From: an uncultured Saprospiraceae bacterium
Lineage (GTDB): Bacteria > Bacteroidota > Bacteroidia > Chitinophagales > Saprospiraceae
NCBI GenBank assembly: GCA_937921595.1
Contig: CAKZTD010000239.1
Location: forward strand, 1-64,000
Direction of reading: 5' to 3'
DNA length: 64,000 nucleotides
The notes under the pieces were generated by a model, which worked only from the letters and a program-made list of their open reading frames with translations, did not search any database and had not been told where the DNA came from. Every line of letters starts with the position of its first letter. Position 1 is the first letter of the stretch. The position numbers and the translations under genes are program-made. Below are positions 103 through 43,310 of the stretch, in pieces.

Positions 103-244
103 TTAGCGAATTGAAAATGAGCGAATGAACAAATTGATAAATGAGTGAATGCCCTTCAAAATGTAAAAAGAAACAAGCTAAAGGCTTAGAGTTTCCACAA
201 TATTCACTCATTCACTCATTCACTCATTCACTCATTCACTCATT
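103..244. repeat. Octamer-armed inverted element, family A copy 1
   Basis: Left arm 103-149 is a run of degenerate 8-mers (TTAGCGAA, TGAGCGAA, TGAACAAA, TTGATAAA, TGAGTGAA, with one 7-nt spacer). The right arm 203-244 is five near-perfect copies of TTCACTCA, the reverse complement of TGAGTGAA. The core between them (about 150-202) contains ATGTAAAAAGAAACAAGCTA. A second copy with the core in opposite orientation lies at 2362-2473. The arms begin immediately after the upstream stop codon. Confidence 0.8.
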
Positions 245-356
245 GGGATAAGGAGCATTAAGTAAAATATTAGAAGTCAAGTTTTACCCGATAATGGTGT
301 GGCGACTAACTAAAAACGAATAATTAAATCGGTAGGTTTTTGAAAATACTATTTTT

Positions 357-2279
357 ATGAAAATGAAAAGTGTAATAAGTTGTGTGTTATTTGTGTTGTG
401 TTTTTTAACCTTTTCAATAAAAGGAAATGCTCAGGATAGTGATTATTCGACATTGTCAATTTCAAAAGAATTGATAAAGAACGCAAGGGAAGTCGTCCGT
501 TTAGACTACATGAAATTTGTGATAGAAAACCCAAAGTCTGCAACGCTTCATGTTAAGTATGCTGTTACAGTTTTGAATAGTACTAGTAAAGCGCACATTC
601 AATCGGTAGGCTATGATAAACACTCTAAGGTCACGAACCTTTCTGCAAAAGTCTATGATGCTTTTGGTAAGGAAGTTAGAAAAATAAAATCAAAAGATTT
701 TAAAGATCAAAGTTCTATCTCAAGCTTTTCAATATACGAAGACGATCGGGTAAAAGTGATAGAATTGCATCACAGCAGTTATCCTTATACCATAGAATTT
801 GAATATAAAAAGACCTTCAAAGGGTTACTTTCTTATCCTTCGAGTTATCTTCAGAGTTATGGTAAATCAGTTGAGAATTTTGAATATATCGTTGAAACAC
901 CAAATGATTTAGCGATTCGATTTCAAGCAGAGAATATCGATATAGAACCAGAAATAAAAAAAGGCGAAAAGAAAACGGTTTATTCTTGGAAAGCGAATAA
1001 TCTGGAAGCAATAGAATATGAGCCTTATGCTCCTTATCATGAGAAGATACGCCCTGTTGTTAAAGTTGCTCCGACTAAATTTCAATTCGATAAATATGAA
1101 GGAGATATGTCAACGTGGAATTCTTTTGGACAGTTTATGTATGATCTGAATAAAGGAAGAGATGAAGTCACTCCTGAGATGGCTCAGCAGATAAAAGAGA
1201 TGACAGCTAATGCTGAAAATGATCAAGAGAAGATCGAAATTTTATATCAATACCTACAAGATAATATGCGGTATGTAAGTGTTCAGTTAGGGATTGGTGG
1301 TTGGCAAACTTTTGATGCAAGGTACGTAGAGAAAAATAAATATGGCGATTGCAAAGCACTGTCAAACTTTATGAAATCTATTTTGAAAGAAGCAGGAATT
1401 CAGTCTTATCAAACTTTGATTTATAGTAACAATGATAATAAAATTGAAATGGATGAAGGGTTTGCTTTTCCTGGTTTTGCAAACCATGTGATTCTAAATG
1501 TACCTTCGGAAAATATGTGGTTGGAGTGTACAAGTACAAATTATCCACCAAATTATATCGGCTCTGGAAATCAAGATCGTCCTGTATTGATGCTTGCTGA
1601 AGATGGAGGAAAAATCCTTCGAACACCAGCGCCTTCCATTGAAGAAAATAAAAGAACAAGCACCGTAAATTTTAAAATCGATGGAAAGGGAGCAGCGGTT
1701 ATTCAAAAGCAAACCAAATACATTGGACCTCAACATGATTATTTTCGATACATCAGTAACAACCTTTCAACAGATGATATTGAAAAAAGATTTTTACAAA
1801 ATTCAGCTCTTCCAGCTTTTACAATAGATAAATTAGAAATTAAAAATGATGAAAAGAAACCAGTATCAATAGTAGATTTTCATTTGACCGTTCCAAGATA
1901 TTCTTCTAAAGCAGGGCGACGAATTTTTATTCCTTTAAACAAACTCAATCCTTTTGATGATGTTCCAAAAGTAATTGAGGAAAGGGTTCATCCTATTCAT
2001 GTGAAAGAAGCATATAAGGAAGAAGATACTTATACATTTAATATTCCTGGTGATTTCGAAATAGAGAGTATTCCTAATAAATCGATTAATCTAGAATCTG
2101 AATTTGGAAAATACCAGATCAATATAGAAGTGAAAGATCTTGAGATTACTTATACTCGGTTATTGGAAATTTATGCCATTGAATTACCAGCTGATCAGTA
2201 TCAAAAACTACGAAATTTTTACAAAGAAATAGCAAAAGCAGATGGAATGAAAGTGGTGCTAGTGAAGAAGAAGGCTTAG
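357..2279 (+). CDS. Secreted DUF3857 / transglutaminase-like protein
   Basis: A 640-residue protein with an N-terminal signal peptide (hydrophobic residues 5-20, likely cleavage after GNAQ). Residues about 50-250 match the DUF3857 beta-rich region, followed near 285-400 by a transglutaminase-like core. Its candidate catalytic Cys is C332 in KYGDCKALS and its His is H377 in FANHVIL; the third residue looks like Glu390 in MWLEC rather than the usual Asp. The remaining 240 residues are beta-rich. Such proteins are common in Bacteroidota; some may be cysteine peptidases or protein cross-linkers, but none is specifically known here. ATG codons at 357 and 363 are both usable. It follows a probable paralogue, suggesting tandem duplication. 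Confidence 0.8.
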   Translation: MKMKSVISCVLFVLCFLTFSIKGNAQDSDYSTLSISKELIKNAREVVRLDYMKFVIENPKSATLHVKYAVTVLNSTSKAHIQSVGYDKHSKVTNLSAKVYDAFGKEVRKIKSKDFKDQSSISSFSIYEDDRVKVIELHHSSYPYTIEFEYKKTFKGLLSYPSSYLQSYGKSVENFEYIVETPNDLAIRFQAENIDIEPEIKKGEKKTVYSWKANNLEAIEYEPYAPYHEKIRPVVKVAPTKFQFDKYEGDMSTWNSFGQFMYDLNKGRDEVTPEMAQQIKEMTANAENDQEKIEILYQYLQDNMRYVSVQLGIGGWQTFDARYVEKNKYGDCKALSNFMKSILKEAGIQSYQTLIYSNNDNKIEMDEGFAFPGFANHVILNVPSENMWLECTSTNYPPNYIGSGNQDRPVLMLAEDGGKILRTPAPSIEENKRTSTVNFKIDGKGAAVIQKQTKYIGPQHDYFRYISNNLSTDDIEKRFLQNSALPAFTIDKLEIKNDEKKPVSIVDFHLTVPRYSSKAGRRIFIPLNKLNPFDDVPKVIEERVHPIHVKEAYKEEDTYTFNIPGDFEIESIPNKSINLESEFGKYQINIEVKDLEITYTRLLEIYAIELPADQYQKLRNFYKEIAKADGMKVVLVKKKA

Positions 2280-2361
2280 AGGTTTTAATTCTTCTAAGTT
2301 GTTATCCATTCTTTTTGTAAAACTTTTATGTTCTGTGTTTTACCCAATGGTTCTTGTTAGA

Positions 2362-2473
2362 ATGAACAAATGAACAAATGAGCAAATAACGGAGGAACTC
2401 TAGGTTCTTAGCTTCTTTACATTTAAAAAGGGATTCACTCATTTATCAATTCACTCATTCGCTCATTTCTAAA
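2362..2473. repeat. Octamer-armed inverted element, family A copy 2
   Basis: Left arm 2363-2386 consists of TGAACAAA, TGAACAAA, TGAGCAAA. Right arm 2434-2473 consists of TTCACTCA, TTTATCAA, TTCACTCA, TTCGCTCA, TTTCTAAA. The core 2387-2433, read on the minus strand, aligns with the core of the copy at 103-244 (shared CCCTT, ATGTAAA, AAGCTAA, TTAGAG/CTAGAG blocks). The two elements are therefore homologous, with inverted cores but arms in the same orientation. Confidence 0.78.
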
Positions 2474-2551
2474 TTAGTCTTCAAAAGTGTACAGTAGTTT
2501 TAAATCTTCAGTAATAAGCCCTACCTTGCGCTTGAAACATCCTATTACCGC

Positions 2552-3316
2552 ATGGAAAGGAACCTACACAAGAGCCTTCAACAAGCAAAAGACAATGGCG
2601 AAAAGAGATTTGTCGTCCTCATCGACCCTGATAAAGTAAAACTTGGGCAGATGGATTCTATTCTCGATCTGGCTGTCAAAGCATCTGTCGATTACTTTTT
2701 TATCGGAGGAAGCCTGATTGTCAATAATATGCTCGATCACTGTCTCCTACGTATCAAAGAGGCTTGTAATATTCCGATGATCCTTTTCCCGGGAAACTCT
2801 TTCCAGTTGAGTTATAAAGCCGATGCAATCTTATTTTTATCCTTGATTTCTGGTCGGAACGCAGATTTACTAATTGGTAATCATGTGCTCGCAGCTCCTT
2901 ATCTAAAAATGAGTCCATTGGAGGTTATGCCGACCGGATACATGTTAATCGATGGTGGTGTAGCAACTACAGTTTCTTATATCAGTAATACTCAACCTAT
3001 TCCTGCGACCAAAGACGATGTGGCACTTTGTACAGCCTTGGCTGGTGAAATGCTTGGTCTGAAGTTTATCTATATGGATGCAGGTAGTGGTGCTAAAAAT
3101 CCTGTTGATACCTCTATGATCGATACGGTAAGTAGTGGTTTGAAAATTCCATTGATCGTCGGTGGCGGTATCCGAACGCCGGAGCAAGCACTCGAAAAAG
3201 CTAAAGCTGGAGCTGATGTTATCGTCGTTGGCAATGCGATTGAAAAAGATCCTAATTTGATTATTGAAATGGCGGAAGCGGTGCATTCGTTGAACCCTAG
3301 TGAAGCGATCAAATAA
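2552..3316 (+). CDS. Geranylgeranylglyceryl phosphate synthase-family protein
   Basis: A 254-residue TIM-barrel prenyltransferase of the GGGPS/PcrB family, which condenses a polyprenyl diphosphate with sn-glycerol-1-phosphate to form an ether-linked lipid. Family signatures are visible in order: VVLIDPDKV near 22-30, FPGNSFQLS near 80, YMDAGSGAKNP near 175-185, then VGGGIRTPEQA and AGADVIVVGNAIE near 205-230 as the phosphate-binding half of the barrel. Length is normal for the family. Group II bacterial members from Bacteroidota are known to accept geranylgeranyl diphosphate, but the chain length used here cannot be read from sequence. The start at ATG 2552 fits the conserved N-terminus. It stands alone between rsgA and a repeat element. 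Confidence 0.88.
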   Translation: MERNLHKSLQQAKDNGEKRFVVLIDPDKVKLGQMDSILDLAVKASVDYFFIGGSLIVNNMLDHCLLRIKEACNIPMILFPGNSFQLSYKADAILFLSLISGRNADLLIGNHVLAAPYLKMSPLEVMPTGYMLIDGGVATTVSYISNTQPIPATKDDVALCTALAGEMLGLKFIYMDAGSGAKNPVDTSMIDTVSSGLKIPLIVGGGIRTPEQALEKAKAGADVIVVGNAIEKDPNLIIEMAEAVHSLNPSEAIK

Positions 3317-3378
3317 CCAAGCTGTCAATAAGTTTTTCAAGCTCTTTCTGAACTAATCTCTCCTATCATGGGTTTTAC

Positions 3379-3386
3379 TATCTTTA
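3379..3386 (+). promoter_or_regulatory. Putative -7 promoter box for rsgA
   Basis: TATCTTTA, one mismatch from the Bacteroidota -7 consensus TAnnTTTG, lies 22 nt before the GTG start of rsgA. No convincing -33 TTG was seen at the right spacing, so this is a modest call. Confidence 0.4.
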
Positions 3387-3408
3387 CGCAGACTAGAATT
3401 ATAAAATT

Positions 3409-4353
3409 GTGGAAAAAGGAAAAGTAGTAAAATCAACAGGAATGTGGTATCATGTCGAGATCGAAGATCACTCGATTATTTCCTGTCGTATCATTGGTAA
3501 ATTTCGATTGAATGGACAAAAGCTTACCAACCCTGTTGCGGTTGGAGATGAAGTAGAGTTTGAAATGGAACAAGATGGAAAAGGAATTATAAAAAAAATT
3601 CTTCCTCGCAAAAATTATGTCGTTCGTCAGTCTCCTCGAAAAAAACACTACCTCCACCTTCTAGCCAGCAATGTTGATCAAGCTATCTTGATCATGACCA
3701 TTCGAAATCCTAATCTCAAACAAGGTTTTATCGATCGATTCCTTCTGATGACGGAGCCTTATAATATACCAACGACAATCGTTTTTAATAAAGCAGATTT
3801 ATTGGAAGAAGATGATTTGTTAATGTTCGAATATCTCAAAGATATTTATGAGGATATTGGCTATCCTGTTTTTAAAGTTTCGGCAATAGAAGGGGAGGGG
3901 ATCGAAAAATTAAGAGAGCATTTGGCGAATAAAATTTCTTTGATCGGTGGGCAGTCAGGAGTAGGGAAATCGACACTTATCAATGCTGTACTTCCGGGAA
4001 TAGATCTTCGGACCGATGATATTTCAGATTATACTGGGAAAGGCCAACATACCACGACCTTTGCGGAAATGTTTCAATTGCCAGGCGGAGGACAAATTAT
4101 AGATACACCGGGTATAAAAACGCTTGCCTTTAGTCACTTGGAACCTAAAGATATTACGCATAATTTTCGAGAGATTTTTGTTGCTTCGGAGCATTGTAAA
4201 TTTAGTAATTGCAGTCATCGAAATGAACCTAAATGCGCAGTCAAAGAAGGCGTCGAAGAAGGAACCATTAGCGAATTACGTTATGCCAATTATCTCCAGC
4301 TCATGGATGATACAGAAGGTCAAAACTATTGGGAGCGACATAAGGATATGTGA
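3409..4353 (+). CDS. rsgA: Ribosome small-subunit maturation GTPase RsgA
   Basis: A 314-residue circularly permuted GTPase that acts in late maturation of the 30S subunit. An N-terminal OB-fold (about 1-70) is followed by GTPase motifs in permuted order: G4 FNKAD near 120, then G1 GGQSGVGKST near 180, then G3 DTPG near 230. The C-terminal zinc-binding region shows the family's Cys/His spacing in CKFSNCSHRNEPKCAV. Translation starts at GTG 3409, since no ATG precedes the conserved MEKGKVVKSTG segment. A family B octamer element begins at the base after its stop codon. Confidence 0.95.
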   Translation: MEKGKVVKSTGMWYHVEIEDHSIISCRIIGKFRLNGQKLTNPVAVGDEVEFEMEQDGKGIIKKILPRKNYVVRQSPRKKHYLHLLASNVDQAILIMTIRNPNLKQGFIDRFLLMTEPYNIPTTIVFNKADLLEEDDLLMFEYLKDIYEDIGYPVFKVSAIEGEGIEKLREHLANKISLIGGQSGVGKSTLINAVLPGIDLRTDDISDYTGKGQHTTTFAEMFQLPGGGQIIDTPGIKTLAFSHLEPKDITHNFREIFVASEHCKFSNCSHRNEPKCAVKEGVEEGTISELRYANYLQLMDDTEGQNYWERHKDM

Positions 4354-4440
4354 AACAAGTGAACAACTAATTAAGTTAACAAGAGTTTAGATAATTACTA
4401 ATTTAATTACTTGCTGACTTGTTCGCTTAAATACTTGTTT
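4354..4440. repeat. Octamer-armed inverted element, family B
   Basis: Left arm 4354-4385 is four 8-mers (AACAAGTG, AACAACTA, ATTAAGTT, AACAAGAG). Right arm 4409-4440 is four 8-mers (ACTTGCTG, ACTTGTTC, GCTTAAAT, ACTTGTTT) that are reverse complements of the left-arm theme. The core is about 4386-4408. The element starts directly after the rsgA stop codon, and its right end abuts the -7 box of the next gene, so it may supply that gene's -33 region. Confidence 0.78.
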
Positions 4441-4442
4441 CG

Positions 4443-4450
4443 TACCTTTG
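4443..4450 (+). promoter_or_regulatory. -7 promoter box (TACCTTTG) for the small membrane protein
   Basis: TACCTTTG is a perfect match to TAnnTTTG and lies 16 nt before the ATG at 4467. A TTG about 20 nt upstream falls within the right arm of the preceding repeat element, so the element may contribute the -33 region. Confidence 0.6.
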
Positions 4451-4466
4451 TAAAAAAAATACCATC

Positions 4467-4631
4467 ATGTCTTATACATCACGTCATCGTTATAAAAATC
4501 GTAGAGAGAAATTCCAGCATACTAAAAAGAAAACTGGAATGGTGCTGATAGTGATTTTGATTGGTTTATTCTTTTTATCTATCTATTTTTGGGACAATCT
4601 TAAAGATTGGTACTCGATTACATTTGGGTAG
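4467..4631 (+). CDS. Small single-pass membrane protein (54 aa)
   Basis: A short frame from ATG 4467 to TAG 4631 encodes 54 residues: a strongly basic N-terminus (SRHRYKNRREKFQ then KKKTG, residues 5-24), one transmembrane segment (about residues 25-42, MVLIVILIGLFFLSIYFW) and a short tail. By the positive-inside rule the N-terminus should be cytoplasmic. A perfect Bacteroidota -7 box sits 16 nt before the start, which supports it being a real gene. I do not recognise the family; small basic single-pass proteins of this kind are common in Bacteroidota and often unannotated. Confidence 0.7.
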   Translation: MSYTSRHRYKNRREKFQHTKKKTGMVLIVILIGLFFLSIYFWDNLKDWYSITFG

Positions 4632-4808
4632 TTTCGGATTCTTCTCTATGAGACAATTCATATTCAAAAGCAATACGTTAATTTTTGTTTTGTCTTTTCC
4701 TTAGATTTAATCTGTTTTTTTTGAAAAAAAACGAATTGATCGTTGAAGTAAATTTATCAAAATACGTTTGCTTTTAACGTTATTCAAGAACAAGTAAAGA
4801 CCAATGAA

Positions 4809-5597: not shown

Positions 5598-5607
5598 TTA
5601 AATGAGA

Positions 5608-5657
5608 ATTGGAAAAATCGAAAGTCACCTTAACAGACTTTTATAGAGTTTTCCAAT
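5608..5657. terminator. Hairpin between convergent genes
   Basis: ATTGGAAAA at 5608-5616 pairs with TTTTCCAAT at 5649-5657, with an inner GAAAGTC/GACTTT stem. It lies between two convergent genes and could terminate both, although no long T-run follows directly. Confidence 0.5.
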
Positions 5658-5678
5658 CCTTAAAAAATAACGAAACAC

Positions 5679-10514: not shown

Positions 10515-10566
10515 CGGTATTAGGTGTTCGGCATTAGAAGAGCCCGAAAACCTAATACCGAATGCT
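10515..10566. repeat. Octamer-type palindromic element, family C copy 1
   Basis: CGGTATTAGG (10515-10524) pairs with CCTAATACCG (10551-10560), with further GCATTAG/GAATGC pairing out of register. The core contains AGAAGAGCCCGA, which recurs inverted at 30774-30784 and in altered form at 26180-26238. Arms have an 8-nt period. It lies upstream of one minus-strand gene and downstream of the next. Confidence 0.75.
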
Positions 10567-11954: not shown

Positions 11955-12028
11955 CTATGTGTTCTTATGTGATTAATGTGATGAAACAAACATATTTTTT
12001 ATCACATTGATTACGAAAGAACACATGT
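11955..12028. repeat. Octamer-armed inverted element, ATGTGA type
   Basis: Left arm 11957-11983 reads as 8-mers ATGTGTTC, TTATGTGA, TTAATGTG. The right arm 12001-12027 (ATCACATTGATTACG then AAAGAACACATG) is its reverse complement with a few mismatches. The loop 11984-12000 is AT-rich. It lies 30 nt beyond the stop codon of the anti-sigma-like gene. Confidence 0.72.
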
Positions 12029-20243: not shown

Positions 20244-20250
20244 TCATATG

Positions 20251-20856
20251 GTTATGTAGTGATGTTGTTATATAGTTATGTATAGCTTACTTTTGGTTTC
20301 ATCACAGAAATTAGAGACAGGATTTAATTTTAACTCTTGAAACGGACATAACTTTTGATATTTCTAGAGCTTCTTGTTTTATGTTTTTTGGGATATTTAT
20401 TTTAAGATCTGATTCTTCAAAAAGTTCTAACCAATACAATGTTTCATCAGCTTCTTCAACGACAATGCATATTTTAGCAAAACGTTCTTTATAAGATCTA
20501 GCTATGCATGTAGCTCTAAAATTGGCTCCTGTAGAAGTTACTGATCTCATAAGTTGTCTTCCAATAATTCTTATTGCCTCATTTTTATTAGGGATTTGGG
20601 TATAAAAATTAATGATTAAAATGGCTAACTTTTTTGTTCTTTTTCTAAACGTCTGATTAAAATCCGATTGATTCATAAGTGAAATATTTTAGTGTATACT
20701 TATAAGACTCCAAACCACCTCAAATTCCATAAAATAAAACCACTTTTTTCAAATTTTAACACTTTTTTCCACATAACCACATAACCACATCACCACATCA
20801 CCACATCACCACATTACCACATCACCACATCACCACATCATCACATCATCATATAA
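20251..20856. mobile_element. Octamer-armed element carrying a four-helix-bundle (IVP) gene
   Basis: Left arm 20251-20282 is four 8-mers (GTTATGTA, GTGATGTT, GTTATATA, GTTATGTA). Right arm 20769-20856 is eleven 8-mers (CCACATAA, then mostly CCACATCA, ending TCACATCA and TCATATAA), reverse complements of the left theme. Between them is one gene of the 23S rRNA intervening-sequence protein family on the minus strand. The right arm provides the stop codon of the neighbouring LysE-type gene. The layout recalls a 23S rRNA IVS: complementary arms with an S23/IVP frame in the loop. Confidence 0.65.
20311..20676 (-). CDS. Four-helix-bundle protein, 23S rRNA IVP family
   Basis: A 121-residue protein with the hallmarks of the IVP/S23 four-helix-bundle family: RQLMRSVTSTGANFRATCIARS (variant of QLLRSxxSIGANYxEAxxAxS, about 41-62), YKERFAKICIVVEEADETLYWLELF (about 63-87), and a C-terminal helix. 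Such frames occur inside 23S rRNA intervening sequences and as free genes in Bacteroidota; the related Avd protein assists diversity-generating retroelements, but no reverse transcriptase is here. Molecular function of free copies is unknown. It sits alone between inverted octamer arms. Start at ATG 20676 gives the usual family length. Confidence 0.88.
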   Translation of the reverse strand: MNQSDFNQTFRKRTKKLAILIINFYTQIPNKNEAIRIIGRQLMRSVTSTGANFRATCIARSYKERFAKICIVVEEADETLYWLELFEESDLKINIPKNIKQEALEISKVMSVSRVKIKSCL

Positions 20857-21466
20857 CCACCCTCCCAATTAAGACCATCCCAAAAAGAACCAATGCCACT
20901 CCCGTCACTCGACGTACCCAAATCAAATGATGAACCTCCAAATAATGCCTCAGTTTTTTAGCCAATATAACTTTTAGCGAATCCGTCACCATGATCGTTC
21001 CAAGGATTCCGGCGAAAAATAGAAACGATTGATGTGGCGTAAAATCATTGTCAGCGACAACCGTCGTCATCACCAATACCCAAAAGAAAACGGTAAATGG
21101 ATTTAAAGTATTAATGATGAAACCTTTGATCCATAGAGCGAGATAGGTACCTGTAATTTTTTTACTTTTATTAATATCCGGGGTAGGACTGAGGAGCGTA
21201 AAAAATCCAGTGATTATCAAAATAACTCCTCCAGCGATACCAACTGCCAATTCAAAATGTTCCCATTCTGTTACCGCTTTTACATGACTGAAACCATAGT
21301 AAACTGCAAGGATGAAAAGCAAGTCACTGACCCAGATTCCAAAGCCAATCATGGTGCCTGCTCGGAAGCCACGTTCCACTCCCGCTTGTATCAATGCAAA
21401 GACCAAGGGCCCGACGAGGATCGTTAGAAAAAGTCCATACTTGATTCCGCTAAGCAATGCGTCCAT
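20849..21466 (-). CDS. LysE/RhtB-family exporter
   Basis: A 205-residue inner-membrane protein with about six helices, matching the LysE-type translocator family that exports amino acids. Family features: LFLTILVGPLVFALIQAGVERGFRAG near the N-terminus with the conserved GP, ISDLLFIL-like WVSDLLFILAVYYG, and KGFIINTLNPFTVFFWVLVM with the NPK-like NPF turn. Substrate unknown. ATG 21466 is chosen because it gives the family's N-terminus (MDALLSGIKYG); a longer frame adds 20 atypical residues. Its last codons and TGA stop lie in the right arm of the adjacent octamer element (stop within TCATATAA read in reverse). A TATCTTTA box lies 4 nt upstream of the start. Confidence 0.82.
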   Translation of the reverse strand: MDALLSGIKYGLFLTILVGPLVFALIQAGVERGFRAGTMIGFGIWVSDLLFILAVYYGFSHVKAVTEWEHFELAVGIAGGVILIITGFFTLLSPTPDINKSKKITGTYLALWIKGFIINTLNPFTVFFWVLVMTTVVADNDFTPHQSFLFFAGILGTIMVTDSLKVILAKKLRHYLEVHHLIWVRRVTGVALVLFGMVLIGRVVI

Positions 21467-25050: not shown

Positions 25051-25067
25051 AACTGTATTTTTTTATA

Positions 25068-25230
25068 GAAGTTTTTTAAGTATGTGCTCTTAGGTTATTT
25101 GTGAATGCTTGGTTTTTAAGACGAAACTCATTTTTATTTTCATAGCCATAGCTATGGGAATAAAAATAGCTGAAGTATTAAGAATCAATGATTTACAAGT
25201 AATCCATAAGTTCATGCTTAAACAACTTTT
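25068..25230. repeat. 163-bp palindromic element, copy 1
   Basis: Outer arms GAAGTTTTTTAAGTATG (25068-25084) and CATGCTTAAACAACTTTT (25213-25230) enclose a central stem built on CATAGC-CATA-GCTATG (25141-25156), with flanking ATTTT and GGGAATAAAAA. It aligns along its full 163 bases with 38644-38806, with identical length and compensatory substitutions in the stem. It sits 18 nt upstream of the PorG-like start codon. Confidence 0.82.
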
Positions 25231-25322
25231 AAAGACTAATTAATAGCCTTTTCGTTCATGAGACCGCAAAGTTAGTATAAAACGGGCAAACTCGCCACTT
25301 TGGTATGCGTTTTAAAGTTATC

Positions 25323-25407
25323 AAGCCAATAACAAGACAAGTTAACAATTGACGAAATTTACTTAACAGACAAATGTTCAAATATTGTTTTGCTAACTTG
25401 TTCGTCT
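25323..25407. repeat. Octamer-armed inverted element, family B
   Basis: Left arm 25323-25354: AAGCCAAT, AACAAGAC, AAGTTAAC, AATTGACG. Right arm 25376-25407: GTTCAAAT, ATTGTTTT, GCTAACTT, GTTCGTCT, reverse complements of the left theme. The core is about 25355-25375. It ends 7 bases before the stop codon of the RsmI-like gene. The preceding stretch to 25230 is otherwise featureless. Confidence 0.75.
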
Positions 25408-25413
25408 ATGTTC

Positions 25414-26121
25414 CTATCCTTGAATCAAAAATATAGCCGGAACTTTATGCAATTCAGGAGTTTTACTCATCTTCCAATCTTTTATCGTCTTAGTTTTTAC
25501 ATATTCTTGAGGAGTAGCAAGATCAGCAGCGATACAAAACCGAGTATTTGGAGCTAATGTTTTCACTGCTTGTTCAATAAGTTTATTGTTACGATAAGGT
25601 GTTTCAATAAAAATCTGAGTTTGCTTATGCTTGATAGAAAGTGATTCTAATCTTTTTAAATCTTTAGTCAATTCAAAAGGTTTTGGAGACAAATAACCTT
25701 GAAAAGCAAAGGATTGTCCATTCATACCCGAAGCCATCAAAGCCAAAAGAATAGAAGAAGGACCGACCAAAGGAACCACCTGGATACCTTGTTGATGAGC
25801 AATTTTTACAATATCTGCTCCTGGATCAGCCACTCCAGGGCAACCTGCTTCCGATAAAAGGCCAATATCATGACCTGCTTTCGCTGGTGCTAAAAAACTA
25901 TTTAATTCTTCTGGAAGTGTTCGTTTATTGAGTTCAAAAAATTCAAGCTCACTAAATGCTTTGACAGGAGTAGTTGATTTTATAAAATGACGAGCCGTTT
26001 TAGCTCTTTCAGCGATAAAATAATCCAAACGATGTAATATTTCAATCACATAGGCTGGGATCGTCTGAAGACTATCTTCTCCAAGCGGGGTAGGGATGAG
26101 GTATAATTTTCCTTTTGACAA
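25414..26121 (-). CDS. RsmI-like tetrapyrrole-methylase-fold methyltransferase
   Basis: A 235-residue SAM-dependent methyltransferase of the RsmI type, which in E. coli 2'-O-methylates C1402 of 16S rRNA. Features: KLYLIPTPLGEDSLQTIP at the start, LDYFIAERAKTARHFIK near 50, GLLSEAGCPGVADPGADIV near 105-125 and VVPLVGPSSILLALMASGMNGQSFAF near 130-160. Translation probably begins at TTG 26121, directly before SKGKLYLIP; the frame continues upstream to 26202 but there encodes residues overlapping a repeat element. Bacteroidota often carry a shortened RsmI paralogue like this, so the exact target may differ from C1402. Confidence 0.82.
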   Translation of the reverse strand: MSKGKLYLIPTPLGEDSLQTIPAYVIEILHRLDYFIAERAKTARHFIKSTTPVKAFSELEFFELNKRTLPEELNSFLAPAKAGHDIGLLSEAGCPGVADPGADIVKIAHQQGIQVVPLVGPSSILLALMASGMNGQSFAFQGYLSPKPFELTKDLKRLESLSIKHKQTQIFIETPYRNNKLIEQAVKTLAPNTRFCIAADLATPQEYVKTKTIKDWKMSKTPELHKVPAIFLIQG

Positions 26122-26179
26122 GATGTTAGATGTTTTGTGGTGGCAAATTACAAATAAGAATGATGATATCAAAAGAGGG

Positions 26180-26238
26180 AAACGGCATTCAGTATTCGGC
26201 ATTAGGAGAGTCCGAATGCCTAATGCTGAATGCCGTTT
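26180..26238. repeat. Octamer-type palindromic element, family C copy 2
   Basis: AACGGCATTCAG (26181-26192) and CTGAATGCCGTT (26226-26237) form a perfect 12-bp stem. Inner units TATTCGGC and ATTAGGAG mirror CCGAATGC and CTAATGCT, all spaced 8 nt apart. The core GGAGAGTCCGA resembles AGAAGAGCCCGA at 10515-10566. Confidence 0.82.
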
Positions 26239-27141: not shown

Positions 27142-27223
27142 AAGCCAACAAGTTGTTAAGTTAATAAGTTAGCAATTCGCTCTATTTATTGTTCACTTAT
27201 TAACTTAATACTTTGCTAACTTA
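27142..27223. repeat. Octamer-armed inverted element, family B, between scpA and the MoxR operon
   Basis: Left arm 27142-27173: AAGCCAAC, AAGTTGTT, AAGTTAAT, AAGTTAGC. Right arm 27192-27223: TTCACTTA, TTAACTTA, ATACTTTG, CTAACTTA. The two arms are reverse complements in theme, around an 18-bp core. The TAA stop of the DUF5682 gene (27221-27223, minus strand) is the end of the last octamer, and the left arm starts 4 bases after the scpA stop. Confidence 0.83.
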
Positions 27224-29484: not shown

Positions 29485-29553
29485 AGTGGTGAGAGGTGAG
29501 GAGTGGGGGTGAGGGCTTTTAGTTCACTCTTTACCTCTCACTCCTCACCTCTG
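29485..29553. repeat. Octamer-armed inverted element, GGTGAGGA type
   Basis: Left arm about 29487-29513: TGGTGAGA, GGTGAGGA, GTGGGGGT. Right arm about 29523-29553: TCACTCTT, TACCTCTC, ACTCCTCA, CCTCTG. The arms are complementary across a short core (GGGCTTTTAGT). It fills the gap between the MoxR and DUF5682 genes. Confidence 0.72.
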
Positions 29554-30669: not shown

Positions 30670-30885
30670 ATAATCAAGTCAACAAGCTAGTAATTTATGC
30701 GAATCAGGGTTTAAAATATCGTTGTTTTTTTTGTTCAAAACTAAGAAAAACGACATTAGGTGTTCGGTGTTTGGGCTCTTCTAATGCCGAACACCTAATA
30801 CCGCTAACGTTCAGACTCTAAGCTTATAGACATTTTGTAAATACCTTTCAAACCTAATTCGCATAACTTATTCACTATTGCTTTC
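30670..30885. repeat. Family B element split by a nested family C element
   Basis: Left side (about 30673-30712): ATCAAGTC, AACAAGCT, AGTAATTT, then TTATGCGAATCAGGGTTT. Right side (30851-30885): AACCTAATTCGCATAA followed by CTTATTCACTATTGC, the inverse of the left. The right side runs over the TAA stop (30868-30870) of the DUF5691 gene. Between the halves lies a complete family C palindrome (30751-30813). Confidence 0.68.
30751..30813. repeat. Octamer-type palindromic element, family C copy 3 (nested)
   Basis: Left units ACATTAGG, TGTTCGGT, GTTTGGGC and right units TCTAATGC, CGAACACC, TAATACCG mirror each other with an 8-nt period. The core GGGCTCTTC is the inverse of GAAGAGCCC at 10537-10545, so this copy is in the opposite orientation. 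Confidence 0.78.
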
Positions 30886-37093: not shown

Positions 37094-37181
37094 ATTTGTT
37101 TTTTTGAGTCTATCGGTCTATGGCAGGTAAACTATTTCCTTCGTTTGATTGGTCTAAGAACTATAAATTACAATGAGAAAA

Positions 37182-37207
37182 GCCCTTTCCGCCGTGACAG
37201 AAAGGGC
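37182..37207 (-). terminator. Terminator of the aminopeptidase P gene
   Basis: GCCCTTTC (37182-37189) and GAAAGGGC (37200-37207) form a stem; on the minus strand the hairpin is followed by TTTTCTC. It lies 44 bases past the stop codon. Confidence 0.75.
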
Positions 37208-37250
37208 CTGATCATATAAAAATGACTAAAGACTATACGAGTTTGACTTT

Positions 37251-38552: not shown

Positions 38553-38643
38553 GGTGTTGTTTTTTGTTTAGTGTTTGGAGATTTTATTGATAAAACCAAT
38601 TATCGATAATTTCTTCAAACCACTTTGTGTATGTTCAGTGTCA

Positions 38644-38806
38644 GAAGTTGTTCAAGAATATGTTCTGAAATTAGTTGTAAGTGCTTGATTTCTAGAACGA
38701 AGCTAGTTTTTCTTTTCGTAGCTGTAGCTACGGGAATAAAAACAGCTGAAGTTATTAGGAATCAATGACTTGTAAATAATTCATCAATTTATTTTTGAAC
38801 AACTTC
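38644..38806. repeat. 163-bp palindromic element, copy 2
   Basis: Outer arms GAAGTTGTTCAA (38644-38655) and TTGAACAACTTC (38795-38806) are exact inverses. The centre is CGTAGC-TGTA-GCTACG (38717-38732). It aligns throughout with 25068-25230. Where the other copy has CATAGC/GCTATG, this one has CGTAGC/GCTACG, so both sides of the stem changed together. The rest of the 520-bp gap 38553-39075 holds no gene. Confidence 0.85.
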
Positions 38807-39010
38807 TCAATGTAATACGCTCACTCCTAACTGCTCTATTGGTTTGTGTAATAGTAATAAAGAATGACAATAAACAGTCAAGATTTTTATTTAGATAACC
38901 GGGAGGTATTGTGGTTTTCTCGTGGATAAGCTTATTACAATACTATTAAAAAATGTTTGTATTGGCAAGGGAGTATAGGATTGTATAAATGCATTAAAAT
39001 TCAATGTAAT

Positions 39011-39041
39011 AGTCAAAGTATTGATAATCAATATTTTGACT
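39011..39041. other. 31-bp near-perfect palindrome
   Basis: AGTCAAAGTATTGAT (39011-39025) and ATCAATATTTTGACT (39027-39041) are inverse except at one position, with a single-base centre. A one-base loop is too tight for RNA, so a DNA operator is more likely than a terminator. It lies just past the stop of the YkvA gene. Confidence 0.5.
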
Positions 39042-39075
39042 GCTCTCAAGGGGAATGTTAAAGTTTAAAACTTAC

Positions 39076-39462
39076 TTAGAGCTGTTTATCTATTACTTTC
39101 AAATCGTCTTCATTCAAATCTTTAAACCATTTTTTTAATTGGGCTCGTGCATTTAATCTTACTTCATTATTGACATAACAAGCAATAGTAACTAGTCCAA
39201 AACTCAATACGCCGATATCATCTGTGTATCCGATGATAGGCGTCAAATCGGGTAGTGCGTCGATAGGCGATATAAAATAACCTAGGGTACCGATGATCAC
39301 ATTTTTTGCCCAAGAAGGGGTGTCGCTTCTCTTGTAAGCATAGAAAAGTAATAGTACAGTATAAATAGTTTGTTGACCAGCTTTGGTTGCAAACTTTTTA
39401 ATCTTATTCCACATACCCAACTCACTAAAGCCCTTTGCATGCTTTTTGAAAGGATTCTTCAT
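39076..39462 (-). CDS. YkvA/DUF1232 family protein
   Basis: A 128-residue protein with the DUF1232 core: KNVIIGTLGYFISPIDALPDLTPIIGYTDDIGVLSFGL (about 56-93), where SPIDxIPD and GYxDD are diagnostic. The N-terminus is basic. Family members are small membrane-associated proteins of unknown function, common next to envelope genes. A divergent ExbD gene lies upstream across 200 bp with no recognisable element. Confidence 0.85.
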   Translation of the reverse strand: MKNPFKKHAKGFSELGMWNKIKKFATKAGQQTIYTVLLLFYAYKRSDTPSWAKNVIIGTLGYFISPIDALPDLTPIIGYTDDIGVLSFGLVTIACYVNNEVRLNARAQLKKWFKDLNEDDLKVIDKQL

Positions 39463-39660
39463 TTATCTAATTATTGTTTCATAACCAATTTATAAAAAAA
39501 TAAACGCTTGTCAAATATTTTAAGATTTCCGTAGGACAATCTTCGACGAATCAAATATGAAACTCAAGCTATCAATCCACCAAAAATACCTCTTAACCAC
39601 ATCTTAGTAGTAATCCGTCGTCGAAAACAGATTTATTCATTTTTTCTAAAAAATAAATTT

Positions 39661-40209
39661 ATGACAAATTCTAGAAAACGACGAAAACACGACCAGTCTG
39701 TAAATGCAGGATCAATGGCAGATATTGCCTTTCTATTGCTTATCTTTTTTTTGGTAACCACGACTATTTTAAATGAAACAGGAATCAGAGTTGTTCTTCC
39801 GGTTTGGGATGAAAATCCAATATCAACTCCTCTTCCTCCTCGAAATGTATTAAACATCTTAGTCAATTCTAGTAATAAATTACTCATCGAGAAAGAACTA
39901 GCAGAAGTAGGAACGATCAAAGAAAGAACTAAAGAATTTATAATGAATCCTCAGGGCTTGAGTACCTTGCCTGCTAGTCCTAAAAAAGCAGTGGTGTCTT
40001 TACAAAATGACAGAGGTACTTCTTATCAAACTTACATCGAAGTCTATAATGAAGTAAAGGCAGCGTACAATGAATTGTGGGATGTTGCAGCTAAGAGACG
40101 CTTCGGAAAAAGTTATGCAGATTTAAATAGAGAAGATAAACAAGATGTGAGGAAAGATATTCCTTTAGTGATTTCGGAAGCAAATCCTACGGATCATCAA
40201 ATGAAATAA
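39661..40209 (+). CDS. ExbD/TolR family protein, orphan
   Basis: A 182-residue ExbD/TolR homologue: basic N-terminus, a single transmembrane helix about residues 20-40 (NAGSMADIAFLLLIFFLVTTTI with the essential Asp in the helix, MADIAF), and a periplasmic domain of about 140 residues. ExbD works with ExbB/TonB to energise outer-membrane transport, but no exbB or tonB is adjacent, so it must pair with components encoded elsewhere. The periplasmic domain is longer than in E. coli and ends in a charged tail. The stop codon overlaps the first bases of a palindromic element. Confidence 0.88.
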   Translation: MTNSRKRRKHDQSVNAGSMADIAFLLLIFFLVTTTILNETGIRVVLPVWDENPISTPLPPRNVLNILVNSSNKLLIEKELAEVGTIKERTKEFIMNPQGLSTLPASPKKAVVSLQNDRGTSYQTYIEVYNEVKAAYNELWDVAAKRRFGKSYADLNREDKQDVRKDIPLVISEANPTDHQMK

Positions 40210-40373
40210 GAGCATTTTGGGTAATTGGTCTTTGAGTCGAAAAGCAGTAATTTTTTGATTAGACGAGGGTTAAAAACCGGAGTTTAGCCGTAGTTAAATG
40301 AGGATTTTTAGAACGAAGTATTATCAAAAAAGTGCGGTTTGCAGACCGATTACTAAACTCCCAACATGCTCTA
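40208..40373. repeat. Long palindromic element related to the 163-bp family
   Basis: Outer arms AAGAGCATTTTGGG and CCCAACATGCTCT enclose inner arms GCAGTAATTTTTTGATTAGA and TTATCAAAAAAGTGC. It contains ATTTTTAGAACGAAGT, close to ATTTCTAGAACGAAGC in the 163-bp element, and TTTAGCCGTAGTTAAA at its centre. Similar length (166 bp), so it may be a diverged member. Confidence 0.55.
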
Positions 40374-40384
40374 AAAGAAAGAAC

Positions 40385-40425
40385 AAAAAAGAGGCTGTCA
40401 TTTATTAAAAATAGACAGCCTCTTT
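40385..40425 (-). terminator. Terminator of the polysaccharide deacetylase gene
   Basis: AAAGAGGCTGTC and GACAGCCTCTTT form a 12-bp stem; on the minus strand it is followed by a T-run. It lies about 40 bases past the deacetylase stop. Confidence 0.88.
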
Positions 40426-40461
40426 AAATCGTATAATATATTAAACATTGCCAATTTGAGA

Positions 40462-41115
40462 TCAGGCGGTTTTGCCATAACTGATCTTATGCGCTAGCGC
40501 TTCAGCATCTAACGCTCTAAACTCATATCCCTGTTCCTGAAAATGCTGAAGCACCTTAGGAAGAACATACTGAAGCTTTTCAAAAGACTTAACGCTATCA
40601 TGGAAAACGATGATAGAACCTCCTTTAGCTTTTGAAACTACATTAAATAAACATTGATCTTTCGAAATGGCAGGATCAAAATCTCCACTGAGAATATCCC
40701 ACATGATGATCTTATAATGTCTTTGTAAAAATTGAGCTTGCTTAGGTTTCAATCGACCATATGGTGGTCTGAATAAATCAGACTGAACCAGTCGGGCACA
40801 ATTTCGAACATTGTGAAAATACTGAATGTTGTCGCTGCTCCATCCGCTCATGTGATTATTGGTGTGGTTACCAATAGCATGACCTTGGTTAAGAACTTGT
40901 TGAAAAACATCGGAATGTTTTTTAACATTATCGCCAACACAAAAGAAAGTACCTTTTGCATTATAAGATTCAAGTTGTTCTAAAACCCATGGAGTTACTT
41001 CTGGAATTGGGCCATCATCGAAAGTCAGGTAAAGTATTTTTTCATTGGTTGGGGCTTTCCAATAGAAGTTTGGAAAGAGATTTTGGATAAACTTTGGTGT
41101 TTTTACTAGATACAT
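40462..41115 (-). CDS. Polysaccharide deacetylase (NodB-like, CE4)
   Basis: A 217-residue metal-dependent deacetylase acting on N-acetylated sugars, probably peptidoglycan or surface glycan. Motif 1 YLTFDDGP (about 29-36, catalytic Asp), motif 2 HAIGNHTNNHMSG (about 77-89, two His metal ligands), motif 3 FRPPYGRLKPKQ (about 114-125) and motif 4 IIVFHDS (His near 174) are all present. There is no signal peptide or membrane helix, so it would be cytoplasmic or exported by another route, which is notable for a CE4 enzyme but frequent in Bacteroidota. Confidence 0.9.
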   Translation of the reverse strand: MYLVKTPKFIQNLFPNFYWKAPTNEKILYLTFDDGPIPEVTPWVLEQLESYNAKGTFFCVGDNVKKHSDVFQQVLNQGHAIGNHTNNHMSGWSSDNIQYFHNVRNCARLVQSDLFRPPYGRLKPKQAQFLQRHYKIIMWDILSGDFDPAISKDQCLFNVVSKAKGGSIIVFHDSVKSFEKLQYVLPKVLQHFQEQGYEFRALDAEALAHKISYGKTA

Positions 41116-41265
41116 CTCTTTGATTAACTAAAACAGATTAAGAAAAATCGGGTGTGAATTTTTGAATCGACTTGAATGTTTTAGTGTAGTTGACCAGTTT
41201 GGGACTTACTTCTTTAAAGTCTTCGCGATATGTTCAAAAATTTTACAACCTGTTCTAAAAAAGCT

Positions 41266-41273
41266 TAACTTTG
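41266..41273 (+). promoter_or_regulatory. -7 box (TAACTTTG) of gltX
   Basis: TAACTTTG matches TAnnTTTG and lies 132 nt before the gltX ATG, which gives an unusually long leader for this genome. A hairpin begins 4 nt downstream. Confidence 0.6.
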
Positions 41274-41276
41274 TGT

Positions 41277-41308
41277 CCCCTAAATAATAGTGGAACTATT
41301 TTGAGGGG
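41277..41308 (+). promoter_or_regulatory. Hairpin at the 5' end of the gltX leader
   Basis: CCCCT (41277-41281) with AATAG (41286-41290) pairs with CTATT (41296-41300) and AGGGG (41304-41308). Two weaker hairpins follow (AACG/CGTT near 41335, AATCG/CGATT near 41350). The leader may be structured, but no known tRNA-synthetase leader class is recognisable. Confidence 0.4.
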
Positions 41309-41405
41309 GATTATTGTTGGAATCTTAATCTAGTAACGCTGTGACGTTTAAAATCGCTGCTATATAACGATTAAAAAATCAATCAAATTTTAAATAACAA
41401 AATCA

Positions 41406-42944
41406 ATGAGTTCAGTTCGTGTTCGTTTTGCTCCCAGTCCTACCGGTGCACTTCATATTGGAGGTGTCCGAACAGCTTTGTATAATTATCTTTTAGCCAA
41501 GAAAACTGGCGGTACTTTTATTCTCAGAATAGAAGATACAGATGAGACTAGATACGTTCCGGGAGCGGAAGATTATATTGTTCATGCTTTGAAATGGTGT
41601 GGTATTCTTCCGACAGAAGGTCCTGGCATTGGTGGAGATTATGGCCCTTATCGACAGTCAGAACGGAAAGCTATGTATGGTAAATATGCACAGCAATTGA
41701 TTGACGGTGGAAATGCTTATTACGCTTTTGATACATCAGATGAACTAAATGCGCTTCGTAAAGAATATGAAAGTCGAAAAGAAACTTTTCGTTATGATAG
41801 TTCAACGAGAGATCAGTTGAAAAATAGTTTGACGCTTTCAGAGTCAGAAGTAAAAGAACGATTAGAAAGTGGTGAGCCTTATACCATTCGATTGAAAATT
41901 CCTCGTGACGAATCCATTCAATTTAATGATCTGGTTCGAGGTTCTGTTACTTTTCAAAGTAATGAAGTTGATGATAAGATCATGTTGAAAGGTGGAGGTA
42001 TGCCGACGTATCATTTGGCGAATATTGTTGATGATCATTTTATGAAAATCTCTCATGTTATTCGTGGAGAAGAGTGGCTGTCTAGTACACCTCATCATGT
42101 CTATTTATATCGTTTTTTAGGATGGGAAGATACCATGCCTGAATTTGCACATTTGCCGTTGATTTTGAAACCAACAGGTAAAGGTAAATTAGGAAAAAGA
42201 GATGGAGCTAAGTTTGGTTTTCCAGTATTCCCATTGTCTTGGGAAGGTGCAACAGAAGAAGATTCTTTTGAAGGTTTTAAAGAGTTTGGTTTTGATCCTG
42301 CAGCTGTTTTAAATTTCCTAGCGTTTTTAGGATGGAACCCAGGAACAGAACAAGAAATCTTTTCTTTAGATGAATTAGCAGAAGCTTTTTCAGTCGAAAG
42401 AATTGGAAAATCAGGAGCTAAGTTCGATTATGAAAAAGCGAAATGGTATAACCAACAATACCTGATGGCGAAGAATGGCGAAGAGTTAGCAGTAATGGTT
42501 CGACCTTTTGTAGAAGCAAAAGGCTATGAAGTTTCTGATGATTATTTGGCGAAGGTTTGCGAGATGATGAAAGAACGAGTAAGCTTGATTCCTGATTTTG
42601 TAGAAAATGGATATTACTTATTTGAAGGCGTAAAAGAGTATGATGAAAAGACCATCAGAAAAAAATGGAAGCCAGAACGTCAAGAATCTTTTGATCAGTT
42701 AGCAATATTGATAAATAACGCAGATCCTTTCAATGCAGAAAAATTAGAAGCAGTAGTCAAAGGTTTTGTCAGCGATACAGGTCTTTCTTTTGGAGATGTA
42801 TTTCCAATCCTAAGAATTGCAATCTCGGGAACTATGAAAGGACCTTCTGTGTTTGACATGGTAGCGCTGCTCGGAAAAGAAGAAGTAGCGAGTCGTTTGA
42901 AAAAAGCCTATGCCTATTTTAATGAAGTAAGTCAAGCTGTTTAG
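41406..42944 (+). CDS. gltX: Glutamate--tRNA ligase
   Basis: A 512-residue class I aminoacyl-tRNA synthetase charging tRNA-Glu. HIGH motif in APSPTGALHIGGVRTALYN (residues 9-27), ILRIEDTDETR near 38-48, HVIRGEEWLSSTP near 217-229, and the KMSKS-equivalent KLGKRDGAK near 259-267. C-terminal anticodon-binding helices are complete. Its leader is long and structured. A small acidic protein follows 56 bp downstream on the same strand. Confidence 0.97.
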   Translation: MSSVRVRFAPSPTGALHIGGVRTALYNYLLAKKTGGTFILRIEDTDETRYVPGAEDYIVHALKWCGILPTEGPGIGGDYGPYRQSERKAMYGKYAQQLIDGGNAYYAFDTSDELNALRKEYESRKETFRYDSSTRDQLKNSLTLSESEVKERLESGEPYTIRLKIPRDESIQFNDLVRGSVTFQSNEVDDKIMLKGGGMPTYHLANIVDDHFMKISHVIRGEEWLSSTPHHVYLYRFLGWEDTMPEFAHLPLILKPTGKGKLGKRDGAKFGFPVFPLSWEGATEEDSFEGFKEFGFDPAAVLNFLAFLGWNPGTEQEIFSLDELAEAFSVERIGKSGAKFDYEKAKWYNQQYLMAKNGEELAVMVRPFVEAKGYEVSDDYLAKVCEMMKERVSLIPDFVENGYYLFEGVKEYDEKTIRKKWKPERQESFDQLAILINNADPFNAEKLEAVVKGFVSDTGLSFGDVFPILRIAISGTMKGPSVFDMVALLGKEEVASRLKKAYAYFNEVSQAV

Positions 42945-43000
42945 CAAGCGATTGAATTTGTTTATATTTCACTAATTCATACCAGATAAAATTTTTGATC

Positions 43001-43195
43001 ATGCCAAAGAAAAAACTAAATACAGGGAAGCCAGAGGTTCATAAGGATCTAGAAGGTTTGGACATTAAAATCAATGAATTTGGTGAAATCGTAACAAACT
43101 TCAAAGTCGATAAGATCAATGAGTTTCTTAATGAAAATGTAGAAGATAAAAAATTGAATGGAACGGACAATGAAACTTATCTTGAAGAAGAATAA
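43001..43195 (+). CDS. Small acidic conserved protein
   Basis: A 64-residue hydrophilic protein: basic start MPKKKLNTGKPEVHKDLEGL, then DIKINEFGEIVTNFKVDKINEFLN (about 24-47) and a very acidic tail ending LEEE. The spacing and composition resemble a small Bacteroidota family often found in single copy near housekeeping genes, but I cannot name it. ATG 43001 is preferred to an in-frame TTG two codons earlier. Probably co-transcribed with gltX. Confidence 0.65.
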   Translation: MPKKKLNTGKPEVHKDLEGLDIKINEFGEIVTNFKVDKINEFLNENVEDKKLNGTDNETYLEEE

Positions 43196-43249
43196 GTTAT
43201 GTCCTTAGTCATTTTGGCTAATCCATAGGTTTTGATTTCTACTTTTTGA

Positions 43250-43310
43250 AAAACGGTGTTTGATATTCGAAATTCGGGATTCCTGAAAACCGGATAGCGA
43301 ACACCGTTTT
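43250..43310. repeat. Octamer-type palindromic element, family C copy 4
   Basis: AAAACGGTGTT (43250-43260) and AACACCGTTTT (43300-43310) are exact inverses. Between them, 8-nt units GTGTTTGA, TATTCGAA, ATTCGGGA are mirrored by TTCCTGAA, AACCGGAT, AGCGAACA. Core GGGATTCC. Confidence 0.75.

Follow-up and report, generated by a model that had tools for sequence, protein, structure and literature searches.

Inverted heptamer and octamer arrays around PF05635 genes and at intergenic sites of an uncultured Saprospiraceae bacterium

In the REP/RAYT system (repetitive extragenic palindromes and the REP-associated tyrosine transposase), hairpins are dispersed in trans of a single-copy gene that is itself flanked by like hairpins. 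Inserts that have inverted ends and bear S23p are already known from rRNA genes, as intervening sequences (IVSs). In Coxiella, according to the available part of one source, two to three tandem heptamers, varying by strain, lie upstream of the S23p open reading frame (ORF), and the insert ends in an inverted-repeat stem; the same part presents IVS mobility only as a hypothesis and S23p, or IVP (intervening sequence protein), as a protein without known function (PMC4990558). Heptamer repeats of the unit GGGAATC have been described in Xanthomonas and Nostoc, and in two Xanthomonas genomes the inverted pairs number 70 and 75 (PMC4692102, in part). Here, we analyze a stretch of 64,000 nucleotides, referred to as the window, from an uncultured Saprospiraceae bacterium (assembly GCA_937921595.1, contig CAKZTD010000239.1, positions 1 to 64,000). 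An earlier note, made from this sequence alone, listed 12 intergenic sites built to one plan, in which a left arm of tandem octamers is followed by a short core and a right arm of the inverted octamer. On balance, we lean toward regarding these sites as a class of small mobile elements with inverted arrays of 7- or 8-nucleotide (nt) units: the full form would carry one PF05635 (IVP/S23p) gene, the short ORF-less forms would share its arms at high copy number, and the rRNA IVS would be the same kind of element in the 23S rRNA gene.

Inverted arrays in the window and around PF05635 genes

The coordinates of all 12 sites were confirmed by reading the window. The sites lie between called ORFs, except 26180-26238, which overlaps the called start of ORF 25414-26202 by 23 bases; two sites touch a stop codon, the short ones have no ORF inside, and an Rfam scan of the window gave no match at gathering level. 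Every site was cut into two arms and compared with 300 first-order Markov shuffles of its own. Inverted arms beyond the shuffles were found at 12 of 12 sites, less so at 2362 and 25323, where 4 and 11 shuffles matched the score (none did at the other 10). For the best-lag score, between 0 and 6 shuffles did as well at 10 sites; the number rose to 29 at 25323, where periodicity is weak, and to 133 at 11955-12028, a plain palindrome that is not periodic. The best lag was 8 at six sites (103, 2362, 4354, 20251, 25323, and 27142) and 7 at five (10515, 26180, 29485, 30751, and 43250). A plan shared across families with different units is thus borne out beyond chance. The constant period of 8 nt on which the earlier note insisted is not: the GCATTCAG and GGTGAGGA families are heptamer families, and the period is therefore 7 or 8.

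The note had also proposed a genome scan for inverted repeats with an autocorrelation filter. In a 348-kb sample of the 8.04-Mb genome, window included, 13 of 52 noncoding inverted repeats had a lag match of at least 0.5 (lag 6 in four, all of one local family; lag 7 in four; lag 8 in five). A strict tandem count in the same sample was less clean, with eight noncoding clusters at lag 8, three at lag 7, and six each at lags 6 and 12. The clusters at lags 6 and 12 speak for an alternative in which simple sequence repeats arise by slippage, hairpins are kept by selection as terminators or mRNA ends, and the IVP gene is a passenger. We consider this alternative quite unlikely, and the evidence on it is given below as it arises.

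One of the sites, 20251-20856, holds a gene whose product matches PF05635 (23S_rRNA_IVP, IVP/S23p) at an E value of 6.7e-9 (36.4 bits, cut-off 33.8); its neighbors are a glycosyltransferase gene and a gene for a LysE-type protein. The AlphaFold2 model of the product is a confident four-helix bundle (pLDDT 96.9). The S23-family structure 2rld was the only solved fold that Foldseek found at an E value of 0.001 or less, and also the only sequence match (five chains); Xcc0516 (2gsc) and the Avd protein of diversity-generating retroelements (DGRs) matched at 0.03 and worse, intermixed with plant four-helix inhibitors. A pentameric ring is reported for Xcc0516 (PMC4990558, in part).

The genome has four PF05635 genes, and all four have arm-like flanks by eye. 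The units are the heptamer ATTCGGT at L001, the lag-6 unit AATCAAAA at L002, the octamer AAGTTAAC at L003, and CCACATCA in the window, with inverted flank matches at percentiles 90.4, 100, 97.8, and 99.2 of the null, respectively. Three of the five units named in the note match these resident arms by eye, namely AAGTTAAC, the GCATTCAG heptamer, and CCACATCA; the window sites concerned are 10515, 26180, 30751, and 43250 (heptamer), 4354, 25323, and 27142 (AAGTTAAC), and 20251 (CCACATCA). At L002 and at L096, complete ORF-less hairpin elements in the same orientation stand on both sides of the IVP gene, an arrangement that is composite-like by eye.

PF05635 was found in 54 of 61 genomes sampled from the family Saprospiraceae. 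We used 44 of 46 loci from the genus and family (L009 and L043 were left out; L005, L012, and L028, with in-frame stops, were read as shortened ORFs) and 77 of 80 loci from named organisms (three short flanks were dropped), with 114 ORFs from the latter loci as controls. Bacteroidota supplied most of the named loci; Balneolota, Nitrospirota, Nitrospinota, Planctomycetota, Verrucomicrobiota, Chloroflexota, and Acidobacteriota contributed one or two each, and several loci come from metagenome-assembled genomes. In the genus and family set, the left flank matched the inverse of its own right flank with a mean score of 21.9, versus 11.7 for the right flanks of other loci; 25 of 44 loci exceeded the 95% point of the null and 12 exceeded the 99% point. 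Among named loci the corresponding counts were 45 and 17 of 77, versus 4 and 1 of 114 control ORFs. At 66 of 77 IVP loci, one flank or both had an array of period 7 or 8 (at least 18 of 24 matches), versus 12 of 114 controls, a rarity at control ORFs that argues against repeats plus selection; both flanks had one at 31 of 77 versus 1 of 114. Two named loci, L126 and L121, showed no inverted arms. Of 154 flanks scored at a threshold of at least 19 of 24, 55 had lag 8, 13 had lag 7, and 59 in all had lags 14 to 16; the remaining lags from 3 to 20 together accounted for 4.

Plasmids gave a similar set of loci, 12 of 34 matched records, mostly from cyanobacteria plus Azospirillum and Gemmatirosa. 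Eleven of the 12 had a 7- or 8-nt array in a flank (at least 18 of 24 matches; ten heptamer, one octamer); for the inverted score, seven loci reached at least 26, one had 15, and the other four ranged from 10 to 12. On two cyanobacterial plasmids (L127 and L131), IVP genes lie between cas6 and cas4, with different heptamer units. For period calls and a protein tree, 114 of 121 proteins (90 to 160 amino acids) were kept; on this tree, which has few columns and many open forks, the label "period 8" required 17 changes versus 37.6 when shuffled, and none of 500 shuffles was as low. Arms thus bracket most of the IVP genes examined, in several phyla, with a period that is rarely other than 7 or 8 and that clusters on the protein tree.

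Finally, the note had inferred a process that builds both arms together and suggested comparing arm lengths between strains. Joint building is not supported in general: across 50 loci, the length of the array in one arm did not correlate with that in the other (rho 0.001), and among 14 orthologous element pairs the fit of an arm to its own partner was better in 6, tied in 4, and worse in 4. The pair formed by the window element and its ortholog in the congener G002 is one of the 14; in this pair, matches of the short arm to its own long arm score 24 and 16.5, versus 15 and 10 across, although 16.5 falls within its shuffle range. This pair does fit joint arm change, as a single case. Independent variation of arm lengths is also what repeats plus selection would predict.

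Insertion, placement, and short copies

Eleven window sites (43250 excluded) were compared with stretches of four congeners at approximately 70% identity. Nine could be aligned in one to four relatives; 103 and 10515 had no alignable ortholog. At eight of the nine, the element was absent, by eye, from congeners wherever the gap was short; element 2294..2503 was absent from three ortholog gaps. Other sequence occupied some gaps: at 25323, two of four relatives hold more than 1.3 kb, at 2362 G003 has a different plain palindrome, and at 26180 the gap of G001 contains a different type of degenerate run. The ninth site is the IVP element, which is orthologous in G002 (67% identity), with octamers CCACATCA and CCACTTAA in register. 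In that ortholog (L015), the IVP gene is apparently broken and the long octamer arm is intact. Outside the genus, two Nostoc plasmids in synteny, pC052_D and pNsp_c, have different IVP elements in neighboring gaps, and each is empty at the other's site. By eye, one of these insertions falls within a stop codon, which is still a stop codon, and the second is placed where a stop and a start overlap, with approximately 40 extra bases past the right arm. No target-site duplication is clear at the former, and an ATG is a possible one at the latter. As the empty sites show, the sites are insertions; such insertion, together with copies that have common cores, is a further point against repeats plus selection.

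At the 70 named loci where both neighbors were found, these were on the same strand at 62, compared with 116 of 185 other neighboring pairs, and within the 62 same-strand gaps the IVP gene was sense in 55 and antisense in 7. Based on rough ORF calls at 74 of 77 loci, the edges of the elements lie close to the upstream or downstream stop, at a median of -2.5 bp over 76 edges, and to the start, at a median of 0 bp over 65 edges. This placement may reflect target choice, selection, or a need for read-through expression. The window IVP element lies between convergent genes. In several Flavobacteriaceae, by eye, the IVP elements of L047, L048, L050-L052, and L056 follow the stop codon of what is seemingly one gene, with similar coding ends. 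The possibility that the arms act as a stop-codon cassette was rejected. Read inward, a unit has on average 1.07 stops, against 0.42 when read outward (120 arms of the named set), yet shuffled units already predict most of the stops (192 arms; inward units with a stop, 139 seen versus 120.5 from shuffled units; outward, 78 versus 63.8), and the inward excess is therefore mostly composition.

The short families are abundant in this genome. The unit pair GAGTGAATGAGTGAAT of the TGAGTGAA family, with up to two mismatches, had 282 matches (14 in the reversed control; one array may contribute several matches), whereas the four congeners had 3, 2, 12, and 3 (controls, 12, 1, 1, and 3). The heptamer pair had 315 (control, 40) versus 30, 15, 101, and 50 (controls, 22, 47, 42, and 61). 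A whole-genome count of AAGTTAAC was discarded as uninformative because the reversed control was higher (400 versus 358). The unit-pair counts show species-specific bursts of short copies. An inverted unit pair was present at 25 of 40 TGAGTGAA places examined, and 23 matches gave an alignment of 21 rows after a duplicate and a second orientation were dropped (20 of the 40 places plus site 103; 2362 is not a row). The aligned copies have octamer arms, a conserved asymmetric core of approximately 50 nt, and common flanks. The earlier note argued that copying alone could not explain a common architecture with differing sequence. Within a family, copying suffices, as the 21 aligned copies and the 282 versus 3, 2, 12, and 3 unit-pair matches indicate; across families, the common plan is that of the PF05635 elements.

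The TGAGTGAA copies bring in another alternative, in which the short elements are classical miniature inverted-repeat transposable elements (MITEs) moved by an ordinary transposase, the octamer arms are merely an internal hairpin, and the link to IVP is indirect. The consensus has outer inverted repeats of approximately 20 bp, TAAxxTACTATACACTTTT, with the arms subterminal; these repeats are recognizable by eye in about a dozen of the 21 rows, and by form the family is a MITE. The draft genome, moreover, has no IVP gene with TGAGTGAA units. On the other hand, five AAGTTAAC copies have no common outer repeat by eye, heptamer copies have only short, terminator-like A/T edges and sometimes a common TTCTTAGTTTA flank, and the orthologous IVP elements of the window and G002 end at their arms. 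For the short elements as a whole, we regard the MITE explanation as somewhat unlikely; for the TGAGTGAA family, we give equal weight to the class proposed here and to an ordinary transposase that acts on the outer repeats. The heptamer elements with AAAAAC...GTTTT edges resemble two-way terminators, in keeping with repeats plus selection.

Table 1. Coordinates of the elements and element parts in the window
Feature	Position	Strand	Basis or remark
IVP element, with PF05635 gene flanked by inverted octamer arrays (CCACATCA on +)	20246..20860	-	Between two convergent genes; 606-bp site 20251-20856 of the earlier note
Degenerate octamer arm, ~4 units, inverted to long arm	20246..20281		Inverted-repeat score 21 with 20771-20806
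IVP gene, 121 aa, PF05635 23S_rRNA_IVP, four-helix bundle	20311..20676	-	Pfam, AlphaFold2, fold search
Promoter-like motif ATGGAATT-N11-GGAGTCT	20705..20730	-	Inside element, upstream of IVP start
Octamer arm, 11.5 copies of CCACATCA	20769..20860		Tandem Repeats Finder, 90% matches
TGAGTGAA-family element, outer inverted repeats	2294..2503	-	Inner part is 2362-2473; outer limits approximate, by eye against 21-copy consensus
TGAGTGAA-family element	103..309	+	Row W103 of family alignment; left outer end unrecognizable, right limit by eye
AAGTTAAC-family ORF-less element	4354..4440		First base directly after stop codon; absent in G001 ortholog gap
AAGTTAAC-like ORF-less element, weak periodicity	25323..25407		Shuffle test, ortholog comparison
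AAGTTAAC-family ORF-less element	27142..27223		Between convergent stops
Heptamer-family (GGTATTC) ORF-less element, period 7	10515..10566		Shuffle test
Heptamer-family ORF-less element, period 7	26180..26238		Shuffle test
Heptamer-family ORF-less element, period 7	30751..30813		Shuffle test
Heptamer-family ORF-less element, period 7	43250..43310		AAAAAC...GTTTT edges resembling two-way terminator
GGTGAGGA ORF-less element, period 7	29485..29553		Shuffle test
Palindrome	11955..12028		No significant 7/8 periodicity; class membership doubtful

Other repeats occur in the window as well. A run of six TCCTCAC heptamers at 53129-53171 has halves that are not inverted and no inverted partner in the run, and is followed by a 26-bp tandem repeat at 53237-53299. 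Positions 25066-25231 hold a further noncoding repeat, distinct from the sites above, whose inverted arms are long and imperfect; segments of it have matches of 74 to 80% at several places in G004 and at a single place in G003, and by eye it is without a counterpart in the orthologous gaps of the four relatives.

A motif common to IVP and ssDNA-handling genes, and a possible mechanism

The motif upstream of the window IVP gene, searched with gaps of 8 to 16 allowed, has 12 sites in 8.04 Mb, all with a spacing of 11, and none in the reversed control. Downstream of these sites are three of the four IVP genes, genes for an Mg_chelatase-family ATPase, a single-stranded DNA (ssDNA)-binding protein (SSB), and a DHH/DHHA1 protein, and a DUF3276/PurA-like gene; the others precede genes for a Y1 transposase, ORF6N, PDDEXK_3, and DUF2851 and a gene for a small protein that has no match. 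We read the ATPase as ComM-type and the DHH/DHHA1 protein as RecJ-type; radC lies, by eye, beside the DUF3276/PurA-like gene in L254. Two congeners have seven and six sites (one IVP site with a spacing of 10), before similar-looking genes plus a helicase; these 13 loci were named by resemblance, without a Pfam scan, and one (L278) has no ORF. The gene set resembles a competence or ssDNA-repair regulon, although that name is one we infer. Across the motif loci L259-L283 of three genomes of the genus, small Y1_Tnp, ORF6N, and PDDEXK_3 genes have the motif in common with IVP genes.

The Y1 transposase bears on a third alternative, that of a REP/RAYT system in which such an enzyme moves the hairpins. 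The genome does contain two Y1_Tnp genes, one of them under the motif found before IVP genes. Neither, however, has a 7/8 array within approximately 1.5 kb on each side (best, 13 to 15 of 24), so that a repeat-flanked Y1 gene is lacking at both, and G002 (75% complete) has IVP genes and no Y1 match. We therefore regard this alternative as very unlikely.

For the proposed class of IVP elements, a mechanism can be outlined. A ring-forming IVP might recognize the arms, perhaps one unit per subunit, in hairpin-folded ssDNA or RNA, and could help insertion, also in trans on short copies. We know of no catalytic motif for DNA cutting in the PF05635 family; cutting and joining might be carried out by host ssDNA or transformation enzymes or by another transposase, and the arrays would grow in one arm at a time, through ordinary slippage during replication. 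A bolder version, which we offer as speculative and would rather doubt than defend, takes the elements as transposase-free and moving as single-stranded hairpins during natural transformation or ssDNA repair. A pentameric IVP ring, made together with ComM, SSB, and RecJ, would read one 7- or 8-nt unit per subunit per arm, deliver the element in sense orientation to stop-start junctions, and mobilize ORF-less copies in trans; rRNA IVSs and the Xanthomonas and Nostoc heptamers would belong to the same class.

Several points weigh against the class as we propose it. No movement was observed, and binding of the arms by IVP is a prediction. Eleven of the 77 named loci have no clear 7/8 array, and 32 stay at or below the 95% point of the inverted-repeat null; four or five of the 12 plasmid loci have a low inverted score (10 to 15), and the resident locus L001 reaches only the 90th percentile. 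Among 114 loci with period calls, 64 have period 8 and 26 have period 7, but 20 have none and four in all have 6, 9, or 10 (one or two each), and the label 7 alone clusters weakly on the tree (18 of 500 shuffles as low). The named loci are not independent either, because 14 of 32 IVP pairs with at least 75% identity keep both flanks in common (those in Hymenobacter, Dyadobacter, Chryseobacterium, and others stay put); the other 18 share none, perhaps merely from distance. The motif precedes IVP genes in this genus only (8 of 44 genus and family loci at up to three mismatches, including one weak distal match, and 1 of 77 named loci, a genus member), and two of the four congeners have no exact motif. 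None of the four IVP genes of the draft genome has TGAGTGAA or GGTGAGGA units, and the TGAGTGAA copies carry outer inverted repeats of their own. Lastly, the Xanthomonas heptamers are 83% conserved in place between two species and are reported not to accompany mobile elements (PMC4692102, in part).

If the class is real, it points to a widespread, little-noticed kind of mobile element and joins the role of S23p/IVP, the origin of rRNA IVSs, and the intergenic heptamer and octamer repeats of bacteria. It also makes testable predictions, namely that binding is specific to the unit, that the protein sets the period, and that IVP genes are co-expressed with ssDNA-handling genes.

Comparison with known systems

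Among the literature matches listed, all open-licence papers, none gives a name to the shared plan, in agreement with the earlier note, and none, judging by title and start of abstract, links intergenic 7/8-nt inverted arrays to IVP genes. The intergenic form, in which arrays of 7/8-nt units are inverted, the period follows clade, ORF-less relatives reach high copy numbers, and ssDNA genes share a motif with IVP genes, thus appears to be new, within those matches.

DGR Avd (4dwl, 8ub7) is like the window IVP in its four-helix fold (TM score, 0.63 to 0.70), and homology between PF05635 and Avd has been noted (PMC10053308, in part); however, the match is weak, with a Foldseek E value of 0.06 or worse, no better than that of the plant inhibitors. 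No reverse transcriptase lies beside the window IVP gene, and the genome's single RVT_1 gene lies on contig C122. REP/RAYT resembles the present elements in its trans-dispersed hairpins and differs in the partner gene, which here is not a Y1 transposase.

The TAACTGA heptamers of Beggiatoaceae likewise form intergenic arrays near starts and stops, but in the available part of their description they are direct repeats, with one inverted case, and the terms S23, four helix, and intervening sequence do not occur in that part (PMC4679880). The Xanthomonas and Nostoc heptamers come closer: they are tandem, form inverted pairs, lie near the upstream ORF, and are often found between ORFs of the same direction. 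They differ in being described as G-quadruplex repeats that are stable in place and not associated with mobile elements, and the same three terms are likewise absent from the accessible text (PMC4692102). A link between these heptamers and IVP would be a prediction of our analysis.

The rRNA IVSs, a class marked by excision from RNA by RNase III, share with the window element, in examples such as those of Coxiella and Leptospira (PMC4990558, in part), a PF05635-type ORF and terminal inverted repeats that form a stem. The difference lies in place and number: IVSs are in rRNA, whereas the window element and nearly all the relatives examined here lie between protein genes, with tandem arrays on both sides and ORF-less copies in high number, and the window element itself is intergenic and not in helix 9, 25, or 45 of 23S rRNA. 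The Azospirillum locus L132 joins the two, as its sequence matches large-subunit rRNA end to end (1522.6 bits), with an IVP ORF between heptamer arms within. Given this locus and the heptamers and stem of the Coxiella IVS, the window element and rRNA IVSs have one architecture in different places.

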